IMG/VR virus record: IMGVR_UViG_3300032240_001244
Span: 1 to 64,000 of that record
Length of the DNA: 64,000 bases
Reading direction: 5' to 3' (one strand)
Source of the DNA: a virus
The position numbers were made by a program, and so were the translations under genes. Below are positions 35,998-55,452 of this stretch, in pieces. The notes below the pieces were generated by a model. That model ran no database searches. It was not told where the DNA came from and saw only the letters and a list, made by a program, of their open reading frames with translations. Every line of letters starts with the position of its first letter. Position 1 is the first letter of the stretch.

Positions 35998-36248
35998 TGG
36001 ATATAACATATTCTATAACAGAATTTGTATGGGTTAAAAAAGATAATTCTTTTTATGCCGATGCGGATAGATTACATCCCGAAGGAGATTACAAGTGTAC
36101 TTTCCCAAATGGTAGGAAGAAGTTTTATATTAAAAATAATAATACAAAAGGATTTAGAAGATTTATATTAAATAAGGAATGCGGTACCGTTTTACAGTTT
36201 ATAAGTGAAGATGGTATATTATGTAACATACAAACAAAAACAAAATGA
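35997..36248 (+). CDS. Hypothetical protein between groES and groEL
   Basis: 83 residues, overlapping groES by 1 bp and groEL by 4 bp, so it is part of the same translation unit. Aromatic and Lys-rich (ITYSITEFVWVKKDNSFYAD). No family recognised. Its conserved position suggests a partner or substrate-specific factor, but this is inference. Confidence 0.55.
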   Translation: MDITYSITEFVWVKKDNSFYADADRLHPEGDYKCTFPNGRKKFYIKNNNTKGFRRFILNKECGTVLQFISEDGILCNIQTKTK

Positions 36249-37897
36249 TAAAGACAGAATTTGGAACAGATCTTAAAAAAAGACTCTTAGACGGAGTAAA
36301 CAAGATTAATGCCAGTGTTTCATCAACACTAGGTCCAGCAGGTAGGAATGTGATCATTAGAGGTTCTGATGGTGCTATTAAGATTACTAAGGATGGTGTT
36401 ACTGTAGCACAATCTTTTACTAAACTTGAAGATCCTATTGAAGATATCGGAGCACAAATGATTAAAAGCGTATCAGTTCGTTCAGCAGATAAAGCTGGTG
36501 ATGGTACAACTACATCAACACTTTTGGCATCTGTAATGGTTAATGAAGGTATTAAAGCTATCACGCAAGGATCAAATGCAGTAGAAGTTAAGAAAGGTAT
36601 TGATAAAGCAGTATCAGTTGTAGTAACTGCGCTAAAAGGAATATCTAAAGATATATCCTCAGAAGATCAGATCAAACAAGTAGCTACAATTTCAGCCAAT
36701 AATGATACTGAGATTGGAACATTAATCGCCACTGCTTTGGATAAAGTAGGTACTGATGGTGTAGTGGCTATTGAAGAATCAAAGTCTGGTGAGACTTCTT
36801 TGGAAGTTGTAGAAGGTATGATGTTTGATAGAGGATTTAAATCTCCATACTTTGTTACAGACAATTCAACAATGCAAGCTGTGTTTGATAAACCATTAAT
36901 TTTCTTGTATGATGGTAGACTTACAAGTACTGCACAAGTGCTCCCTCTTCTTCAAGCAGCTCATGCTGAAAGTCTTCCTTTGCTTATCATTGCTGAAGAC
37001 ATTGAACACGAGGCTTTGGCTATCTTAGTAGTAAATAAAGCAAATGCTACAATCAAAGTATGTGCTGTAAAGGCTCCTGACTTTGGTGATCGTAGAACAG
37101 CAATTCTAGAAGACATTGCAATCCTTACTGGCGGTACTGTTGTATCTCCTACCAAGGGTAATAAGATTGATAAGATGAAGCCTGATGAGTTTAAGCCATT
37201 GTTTGGTAAGGCTCGAATGGTGAATGTATCATCTAAAGATACTACTATCATTGATGGTAAAGGATCAGTAGAAGGAATTGAGCAAAGACTGAACGATATT
37301 AAAACTCAGATTGATATAGCCAAGTCTAACTTTGAAGTTGAAAAGCTTCAAGAAAGATTATCAAAGCTTACTGGCGGTGTTGCTATTATCAATGTTGGTG
37401 GTATGAGTGAGATTGAAATGAAAGAAAAGAAGGATCGTGTAGATGACGCACTACACGCTACTAAAGCTGCCTTAGATCAAGGTATTGTTCCTGGTGGTGG
37501 TATGGCTTTGATTAACTGTATAGAGTTGCTTAAAGAGGCTGTATTGGATTGTGACAACGATGATCAAGAGCTTGGTGTACGAATTGTCACTAAAGCTTTA
37601 TACGCACCGTTTAAAACTATTCTTACCAACGCTGGTATTGAGAATGCTTATGAGATTTTAAGCAGTGTTAAGAGCTATTCTCAAGATGAAGATAACTCAG
37701 ATTGGTACGGATATAATGCTAAGACGGGAGAGATCCAAGATTTTCTACAAGCAGGTATTCTAGATCCAACCAAAGTAACTAGAACAGCTATTGAGAATGC
37801 TGCTAGCGTAGCCGGTACTATTCTAACTACAGAGTCAGTAGTATACTTTACTGGAGATGATAAGAAAGAAGATATAGATTATAGTCAATTCATGTAA
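36245..37897 (+). CDS. groEL: GroEL chaperonin
   Basis: 550 residues, full length. Equatorial ATP motif AGDGTTTST (residues 84-92), [12 protein letters not shown] and [20 protein letters not shown], with [11 protein letters not shown] in the apical domain and VPGGGMALI at the C-terminal part. The GGM-rich tail of host GroEL is absent; the end reads [11 protein letters not shown]. It probably folds abundant phage proteins. Diverged from the host-type sequence, suggesting long residence in phage. Confidence 0.92.
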
Positions 37898-53070: not shown

Positions 53071-53772
53071 ATGCAAATCAAATCTTTCAAAAAAGAGAAA
53101 TCTAATAGAGGGCAAGACCTTAATATAGAAAGGCAAGCTATTGAAAGAGCTATGAGAGATACTATGTCAAACAAAGCTGCGGCAAGGTTCTTAGGAGTAT
53201 CTTTTAAAACATATAAGAAATACGCCCAGATGTACCGTAATGAAGATGGTATAACCTTATATGAGCTACATAAGAACCAAGCTGCTAAAGGTATTCCTAA
53301 GTTTGGCAAGAGGAGGCATGACAAGGCTTCCATCATGGATATCATGGAAGGGAGAGTCCCTAAAACATTTGTATCAATTAAAATATTAAAACATCAAATA
53401 ATACAGCATGGAATCTTAAAAGAAGAATGTTGTAGGTGTGGATTCAAAGAGCAGCGTGTATTAGATTACAAGACCCCTCTTATAATGAATTTTAGGGATG
53501 GAGATAAAAAAAATTGGGCTTTAGAAAACATAGAATTTCTATGCTATAATTGTTTTTTTCTTTGTGTAGGAGAAGTTTTTACAAATAAACAACTGTCTGT
53601 AATGGAAGATTTTACAGATTTAAGATCTGTTAAAATAGATCTAGACTTGCCAGTAAAACATGAGGAAGCCATAAAAGAATCAATTAACCTGGAAAATAAA
53701 CATATTTATAGTAGTGAAGAAAGGCCAGAGGATTACGGAGATGATTTAATATCAACATTCAGAAGACGATGA
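53071..53772 (+). CDS. HTH plus HNH-like zinc domain protein
   Basis: 233 residues. Residues 33-50 (SNKAAARFLGVSFKTYKKYA) look like a helix-turn-helix. Later, ECCRCGFKEQR, then FRDGDKKNWALENIEFLCYN and CFF form an HNH-like zinc cluster (CxxC...CxxC) in which the catalytic His is missing. It may be a DNA-binding regulator derived from a homing nuclease, or a phage transcription factor. Its stop overlaps the next start. Confidence 0.55.
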   Translation: MQIKSFKKEKSNRGQDLNIERQAIERAMRDTMSNKAAARFLGVSFKTYKKYAQMYRNEDGITLYELHKNQAAKGIPKFGKRRHDKASIMDIMEGRVPKTFVSIKILKHQIIQHGILKEECCRCGFKEQRVLDYKTPLIMNFRDGDKKNWALENIEFLCYNCFFLCVGEVFTNKQLSVMEDFTDLRSVKIDLDLPVKHEEAIKESINLENKHIYSSEERPEDYGDDLISTFRRR

Positions 53773-54134: not shown

Positions 54135-54462
54135 TGCTGAAGACTTGTATATAATAGAAGTCAGTGATAAGGATATGACAATTAAGCAAGTTCTAGTGGA
54201 ACACGAAAGAGCTTTGTCTTTAGCCATAGTAGAAAAAATTTGCTACGCTATGGACAATAACTTGAAAAAAATAAACATTGCTAGAATATACACAGACTCA
54301 ATTGCAATAACACTTCATACTTCTTTACCAAGTTTCCAAGAGACTTTGGAGACAAACATTGAAAATCTCATAAAGCATGAGGAGTATGAGATGTGTGCTA
54401 TAGGTAAAAAACACCTTGATATCCTAAAAGAAAAACCCGATAGAAAATATTTGAATATATAA
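54124..54462 (+). CDS. Hypothetical protein
   Basis: 112 residues from ATG 54124, overlapping the previous gene by 11 bp; longer upstream starts would lie deep inside that gene. Starts MDFDAEDLYIIEVSDKDMTI. No family recognised. Confidence 0.5.
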   Translation: MDFDAEDLYIIEVSDKDMTIKQVLVEHERALSLAIVEKICYAMDNNLKKINIARIYTDSIAITLHTSLPSFQETLETNIENLIKHEEYEMCAIGKKHLDILKEKPDRKYLNI

Positions 54463-54481
54463 ATATTTATATATATCTTTG
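54450..54481 (+). promoter_or_regulatory. Promoter for lipoprotein/tmRNA transcript (TTTG-N20-TATCTTTG)
   Basis: TTTG 54450-54453 and TATCTTTG 54474-54481, with AATATTTATATATA (54462-54475) in between, so both promoter types overlap. It drives the lipoprotein gene and probably the tmRNA. Confidence 0.7.
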
Positions 54482-54501
54482 TAAATATAATATAATATAA
54501 A

Positions 54502-54696
54502 ATGAAAAAAGCATTTATTATTTTTTTGTTATCTTTGTTTGTAGTATCCTGTGGAGGATCTAATGAAAGTAAACCTGTAGAAGCTACATATGCACCAGTA
54601 GGAGTTGATAGTTCAAATATACTACCTCCACTTACGGATAGTGCTAAGATTGAATTGAATGGAGAAAAACCAAAGCCACAGTTGAACGAGAATTAA
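54502..54696 (+). CDS. Small lipoprotein
   Basis: 64 residues. KKAFIIFLLSLFVVSCGG is a lipoprotein signal with VVSC lipobox; the mature part is short, polar and Pro-rich. It ends 6 bp before the tmRNA. Possibly a surface-exclusion or envelope factor; function unknown. Confidence 0.7.
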   Translation: MKKAFIIFLLSLFVVSCGGSNESKPVEATYAPVGVDSSNILPPLTDSAKIELNGEKPKPQLNEN

Positions 54697-54790
54697 AAAT
54701 AAGGGCCTAACCGGTATCGATTCGTAATCGGAGGGTAGTACCACACGCAGAGATAAGTACTAGATCTCTTTAAACTCTGTACAAAATATA

Positions 54791-54865
54791 AACGACGAAA
54801 TGTCTACTATGACCTTCGATGACCTTATGGCCTTCGTTGGTGCCGATGAAGCAACATTTGCTTAG
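54791..54865 (+). other. tmRNA tag reading frame
   Basis: In frame with AAC GAC GAA, it encodes a long tag of about 24 residues that begins NDEM and ends ATFA before TAG (54863-54865). Host-type tags have about ten residues and often end in ALAA. The preceding codon (ATA 54788-54790) may be the resume codon or lie just before it. The other two frames stop early or end in polar residues, which fits tags poorly. Confidence 0.7.
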
Positions 54866-55092
54866 TCCGCCGAGGTGTCTACAACCTCGCTTCAAACAAA
54901 GTGGAACACAGAGTTTCCCCGATCGACTCTTTAAATAAGGACTGGGGTGGTGGAAAGCTGTCTCCGGACAACCCCTTACTGATCAGCTTGCAGATCAAAA
55001 CTACGGTGCAGATGACGGGGGATCTCCCTCTTGATTGTCAGTACTAAGCGTGTGATATGCTGGTATTATTGTTCATTACGAAGACGTGGGTT

Positions 55093-55370
55093 TGTGGAAT
55101 CGGACCCATCTAGTAGGAATACTAGATTAAAAACTGGATGAATTGCTGGAACTCCTATGACATAGGACAATCAGCAGCCAAGCCTAAAGTACACTTTAGG
55201 AAGGTTCAACGACTAGCGGAGAGATAAAGTTCTCTTAATAACCGCACTAGCGTCCAGCACCCAGATCGGGTGATGATATAGTCTGATCCTCTTGGTAACA
55301 AGAGTTGTAGTTCTTTACGAGGCTGTCTATGAAATCTAAAGTTTCTGGATCTAACAAAAGAATACCAGTG
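55093..55370 (+). other. ORF-less group I intron in the tmRNA T-loop
   Basis: 278 nt. P1 is exon TGGGTT (55087-55092) with GACCCA (55103-55108), leaving the U-G pair at the 5' splice site. P2 is CTAGTA/TACTAG (55110-55125). P3 is CTGGA (55134-55138)/TCCAG (55253-55257). P4 is TGCTG/CAGCA. P6 includes a CCTAAAGT/ACTTTAGG hairpin. P7 is GACTA (55211-55215)/TAGTC (55279-55283), and the conserved GTTCAACGACTAGCGG and GATGATATAGTCTGATCC are both present. P8 is CACCC/GGGTG (55258-55272). P9 is CTCTTG-GTAA-CAAGAG (55289-55304). P10 pairs UCG 55100-55102 with the 3' exon CGA. The intron ends in G (55370). No homing endonuclease lies inside it. Confidence 0.9.
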
Positions 55371-55422
55371 CGAATCCCACTAGGTCCACTTAAAGGTTTA
55401 GGTTAGGATTATGGTTAAAACG

Positions 55423-55452
55423 AAGGGGGGTTTCTACCCCCTTTCTCTTTTT
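55423..55452 (+). terminator. Terminator after tmRNA
   Basis: AAGGGGGG (55423-55430), loop TTTCTA, CCCCCTTT (55437-55444), then CTCTTTTT. Confidence 0.85.

Follow-up and report, generated by a model that had tools for sequence, protein, structure and literature searches.

A phage tmRNA gene is interrupted in its T-loop by a group I intron, a reading supported by a covariance model match, recognition of the tmRNA by ARAGORN after splicing in silico, an intronless allele in a sister phage, and independent cases in other phages. The gene lies in the stretch of DNA analyzed here (the window; 64,000 nucleotides), taken from a virus record of 87,181 bases (G000). From the arrangement it can be soundly inferred that the activity of this tmRNA would depend on splicing.

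The tmRNA, described in an earlier sequence-only reading as split between U and C of the T-loop, was recovered with both its acceptor stem and its T-arm. The 5' exon (54703..55092, plus strand, ARAGORN on the spliced sequence) comprises the 5' strand of the acceptor, the tag region, pseudoknots, the T-stem strand GTGGG, and the loop bases TT; the 3' exon (55371..55388, plus strand) comprises CGAAT, the T-stem strand CCCAC, the acceptor strand TAGGTCC, and an A, with no CCA tail encoded at the 3' end. The 7-bp acceptor stem (GGGCCTA at 54703-54709 with TAGGTCC at 55381-55387) includes G3-U70, and U70 is present in all 3' exons of the set. The T-stem pairs 55086-55090 with 55376-55380, and the loop TTCGAAT is interrupted after 55092, its second base. 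A candidate H-type pseudoknot (54944..54989, plus strand) can be drawn from complementary stretches (GGGG/CCCC and AAGCTG/CAGCTT).

ARAGORN found no tmRNA in the raw, interrupted DNA; with 55093-55370 omitted, it called a complete tmRNA, including the tRNA-like domain, G3-U70, and the TTCGAAT T-arm. In a random-join control, 0 of 1,000 joins yielded an ARAGORN tmRNA. Moving both cuts together by a few bases left the call the same, and three features fix the cut at 55092/55371: the P1 U-G pair, the G that ends the intron, and the sister allele without an intron. The covariance-model check proposed earlier gave a split outcome: the intron passed its model (see below), whereas the tmRNA model RF00023 stayed below its cut-off on the interrupted gene and was passed by the intronless allele of the sister record G002 (67.4 bits, cut-off 47), the exons of which are 94% identical to those in the window.

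The tag frame is open from its resume codon to its stop and reads DEMSTMTFDDLMAFVGADEATFA* (54794..54865, plus strand, ARAGORN resume site; 23 codons and the stop TAG at 54863-54865). The tag frame proposed from sequence stands, with its start corrected, most likely to GAC at 54794 rather than AAC. Bacterial tmRNA tags are mostly about 10 residues long. A DNA pattern for the tag retrieved about 48 viral sequences encoding DEMSTMTF[DE]DLM[AD]FVGADYA[VL]AA or close variants. Among the viral loci with the 23-residue tag (L191-L243), synonymous variation exceeds amino acid variation (23 extra codons versus 17 extra residues). The ending ADEATFA is shared by the window, G001, G002, and L216, and the rest of the family carries the degron-like ADYAVAA or ADYALAA; as ADEATFA takes the place of that ending, proteins tagged with it may meet a different fate. 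Apart from the window and G001, all members of this tag family with a readable T-arm are intronless (L219 judged by eye). The intron is therefore rare within the tag-matched family, as had been supposed, but less rare across phages than was thought. SmpB was not found in G000, G001, G002, or G016, the window's record being possibly incomplete.

The 278-nt insert (55093..55370, plus strand; edges taken from the intronless G002) matched the group I intron model RF00028 at 55082-55305 with 96.3 bits (E = 1e-23, cut-off 50), covering model positions 1-253 of 253. The main elements listed in the sequence-only reading were all located at the positions given there. In P1 (55088..55107, plus strand), the exon sequence GGGTT (55088-55092) pairs with the internal guide GACCC (55103-55107), placing U55092-G55103 at the 5' splice site. 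The core helices P3, P4, P6, P7, P8, and P9 were identified, P3 to P9 fitting the family model: P7 (55211..55283, plus strand; GACTA 55211-55215 with TAGTC 55279-55283) encloses the 3' strand of P3 together with P8, and P9 (55289..55304, plus strand) is a hairpin with a GTAA loop. The terminal intron base is G55370, and P10 is short (UCG 55100-55102 with CGA 55371-55373). A search of this intron for ORFs, including long ones, returned none.

Relatives of the window, all of them metagenome assemblies, were located via the tail sheath protein. G002 (sheath 87% identical) encodes an intronless copy of the tmRNA with an identical tag and the T-arm GTGGGTTCGAATCCCAC, which matches the predicted spliced form exactly; the predicted junction GTGGGTT^CGAATCCCAC thus exists naturally as an uninterrupted gene, bearing out the earlier expectation that removal of the insert restores GTGGG-TTCGAAT-CCCAC. 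A more distant intronless tmRNA, with the tag DEMSTMTFEDLMDFVGADYAVAA, is encoded by G016 (sheath 77%). G001 (sheath 91%) carries the tmRNA in a syntenic locus with an intron at the identical base, and this intron contains an additional 520-bp insert after P9 (corresponding to 55345..55346 of the window, plus strand) with an antisense 198-aa HNH-like ORF (phrog_3322, 7e-23). Thus, the intron is optional at this exact site among close relatives, being present in G000 and G001 and absent from G002.

Between G000 and G001, the introns are identical at 273 of 278 positions (98%) and the exons at 385 of 411 (94%, with one gap; Fisher p = 0.0045), the flanks being about 80% identical. Between G001 and G002, 403 of 412 exon positions (98%) are identical although only G001 has the intron, with flanks mostly 80-90% identical. 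Such a pattern would be expected if the intron had recently been gained, lost, or transferred; its lower divergence could also reflect constraint instead of, or besides, transfer. Because close relatives either have the intron or lack it precisely, and one of them carries an internal HNH ORF, homing is the likely route of the intron, and the window's copy is the endonuclease-free form of a probably mobile element, given the HNH ORF inside the corresponding G001 intron. The earlier suggestion that the intron is fixed or moves in trans can be refined accordingly: the window's copy does lack an ORF, and its counterpart in G001 has one. An HNH-like ORF at 53071-53769 of the window (phrog_14736, 1e-7) was weighed as a possible homing endonuclease acting in trans but rejected because the region aligns without gaps in the intronless G002 and the ORF is dissimilar to the G001 HNH.

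The search of other phage genomes that had been advised revealed the same arrangement in nine viral contigs as well as in LR756501, a phage of 735 kb. LR756501 (L001 3000-3240) encodes its own SmpB and a tmRNA whose T-loop is split at the same point by a 229-nt intron. The tag of this tmRNA is GDYKMNAEDMMSIPTSLTGKVATESFVEDLVLA; the last base of its intron is A rather than G, which means that some copies may be inactive. A scan of IMG/VR with a core pattern including GGGTT yielded 78 stretches, which were then spliced in silico; 10 of the 78 gave a tmRNA, 9 at the window's subsite and 1 at another, compared with 1 of 2,920 random positions. RF00028 confirmed L113, L115, L135, L136, L159, and L168, and also L120-L122 and L085, which are less certain cases. 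L144, L173/L175 (which carry one and the same intron), and L188 also splice to tmRNAs; the three of them that were scanned, L144, L173, and L188, score below the RF00028 cut-off, making these weaker cases. Applied to 84,980 prokaryote genomes, this pattern retrieved 28 stretches and two tmRNAs. The first, from a Prolixibacteraceae genome, is interrupted at the window's subsite and comes with a LAGLIDADG ORF; the second is interrupted at a later subsite. As the pattern is strict, the viral and prokaryote counts are lower bounds; the contigs are classed as viral on the basis of IMG/VR and a few phage genes. A search with intron DNA among 395 Bacteroidia genomes found a single tmRNA case, L071, together with two partial matches that are at best putative tmRNA genes.

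Two scanning variants were abandoned. In an early viral scan anchored on P7 and the 3' part of the T-loop, no locus gave a tmRNA or tRNA after splicing; matches at a relaxed ARAGORN threshold (L121, L122, L163, L190, and others) were dropped as strict cases since 8% of random positions were also positive. The L175 contig (G452, 345 kb) encodes SmpB at 82646-83065 besides the interrupted tmRNA; the near-identical L173 contig had no SmpB match. Introns at a later T-loop subsite of the tmRNA occur in the viral contig L135, which has an antisense HNH-like ORF, and in a Flavobacteriaceae genome (L082), which has an antisense LAGLIDADG ORF. Deep branches of the intron-core tree were weakly supported, and for this reason we claim no direction of transfer.

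A single HNH family recurs around these genes. In G001 and L159, members are encoded within the intron in antisense orientation; in L219, a free-standing member lies just 3' of the intronless tmRNA (about 0.8 kb after the tag); and in L085 (3000-4110), a member lies just 3' of a tmRNA that is interrupted by a group I intron of 207 nt. The L085 intron is at or near the window's subsite, with ambiguous exact boundaries because a cut after TT leaves an insert ending in T. Other viral tmRNA introns, in L136, L144, and L168, contain LAGLIDADG ORFs. The HNH placement fits homing to the tmRNA locus, and the overall arrangement is what would be expected if endonucleases targeting the T-arm join and leave introns at one site, as in collaborative homing. 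Extending this reading, we tentatively entertain the possibility, on balance somewhat doubtful, that Bacteroidota phages of about 80 kb to 735 kb are a main reservoir of tmRNA introns at this subsite and host an HNH family adapted to the tmRNA T-arm; the adaptation is suggested by the occurrence of this family inside introns and beside both interrupted and intact tmRNA genes. If true, this would amount to collaborative homing that targets an RNA gene, and introns would pass in both directions between phages and Bacteroidia chromosomes.

By sequence reading, the tmRNA gene sits between two small lipoprotein-like genes. Upstream is a candidate promoter (54450..54482, plus strand) with the motif TTTG, 20 nt, TATCTTTG, a type characteristic of Bacteroidota, from which one transcript would probably cover a 64-aa lipoprotein-like ORF (54502-54696) and the tmRNA downstream. 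This ORF is absent from G002, and a similar one is present in G001; in G002, an equivalent box, TATATTTG, is found about 10 bases ahead of the tmRNA. An intrinsic terminator with a 10-bp stem and a T-rich tail follows the gene (55422..55452, plus strand). Among isolated phages, Flavobacterium phage immuto comes nearest, with a DNA polymerase 54% identical to the window's and a similar order of genes, but no tmRNA match was found in it; a blastn search of isolated phages with the tmRNA exons gave no match. A chaperonin of the GroEL (Cpn60) family is encoded at 36245-37897 in a gene order resembling that of immuto. The relationship to immuto, the promoter motif, and the T-loop subsite point to a Bacteroidota host, probably Flavobacterium-type bacteria.

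Taken together, it is very probable, judging from sequence, that the tRNA-like end of this phage tmRNA can form only once a group I intron has been removed from the transcript, the intron being a mobile passenger that likely moves by homing. Transcription would probably start at the TTTG/TATCTTTG promoter and end at the terminator; the intron would fold, present the splice site as the P1 U-G pair, and excise itself with GTP, so that 55092 is ligated to 55371 and the loop TTCGAAT is made whole again. Maturation of tmRNA involves RNase P cleavage, 3' trimming, CCA addition, alanine charging via G3-U70, and partnership with SmpB; the spliced RNA is assumed to pass through the same steps and to be used with host SmpB. 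In infection, the mature tmRNA would presumably free stalled ribosomes and tag nascent proteins. At the DNA level, the intron would be gained and lost as a passenger, with homing the likely route and probably little benefit to the phage.

That splicing is instead tied to the state of the cell, so that the phage tmRNA is active only at a certain stage of infection, is improbable: nothing speaks for it directly, apart from the presence of the intron at one shared point in several phage lineages, whereas close sister phages live without the intron, and related introns contain HNH and LAGLIDADG ORFs, as a selfish element would. Slightly less probable still is a dead gene, with an intron past splicing or a tmRNA that is a relic. 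The tag ending ATFA, in place of the usual VAA or LAA degron, might be taken as decay, but it recurs in G002 and L216, both intronless; furthermore, the acceptor, T-arm, G3-U70, and 23-codon open tag are intact, the intron core is full length with its U-G pair and terminal G, and both intron and exons are better conserved than the flanks. Fusion of an intron from another gene or organism into the tmRNA during assembly, conceivable for a metagenomic record, is highly implausible given that the independent record G001 has the intron at the identical base of a syntenic locus and that the boundaries obey group I rules exactly.

The intron in this phage tmRNA extends phage group I introns from protein genes to a structured RNA of translation. 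The phages with and without it are natural material for asking what a tmRNA intron costs, and they provide both a candidate vector and a candidate endonuclease that could explain why tmRNA introns have spread so patchily among bacteria. The case also illustrates one reason for the undercounting of phage tmRNAs: interrupted genes like this one escape ARAGORN and the standard tmRNA model of Rfam.

T-loop group I introns in tmRNA had been noted for a few bacteria in the sequence-only reading, and the accessible part of a 2025 survey (PMC11915505) bears this out with 883 bacterial sequences at four subsites; the kind of element is thus already known, and its phage setting looks new against that text. 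Self-splicing has been demonstrated for the Clostridium botulinum tmRNA intron (PMC2729099). The window's intron resembles those surveyed in its T-loop location, preceding U, terminal G, and length (278 nt against an average of 293 bp). By the survey's preceding-U rule, we read its site as position 3, after loop base 2, a subsite that the accessible text reports from Bacteroidia only and that is occupied here in a phage. It differs from those introns further in residing in a phage tmRNA and in the HNH-like endonuclease of its sister intron, compared with the LAGLIDADG genes of the survey. With the standard phage tmRNAs of that survey (79, with no phage intron form in its main text) and of a huge-phage study that used ARAGORN (PMC7162821), the window's gene shares a tag frame and a G3-U70 acceptor. 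As far as the accessible text goes, these reports mention no intron, and ARAGORN misses the interrupted gene of the window; the 735-kb phage of the latter study also has SmpB. According to a 2014 review, every phage intron then known was in a protein-coding gene (PMC3984707), and collaborative homing has been described for F-CphI (PMC6083498; see also PMC3984707). As in phage group I introns such as those of T4 td and cyanophage psbA, and in F-CphI, the endonucleases are found within the intron or beside the target gene; unlike td and psbA, the host gene here is an RNA gene.
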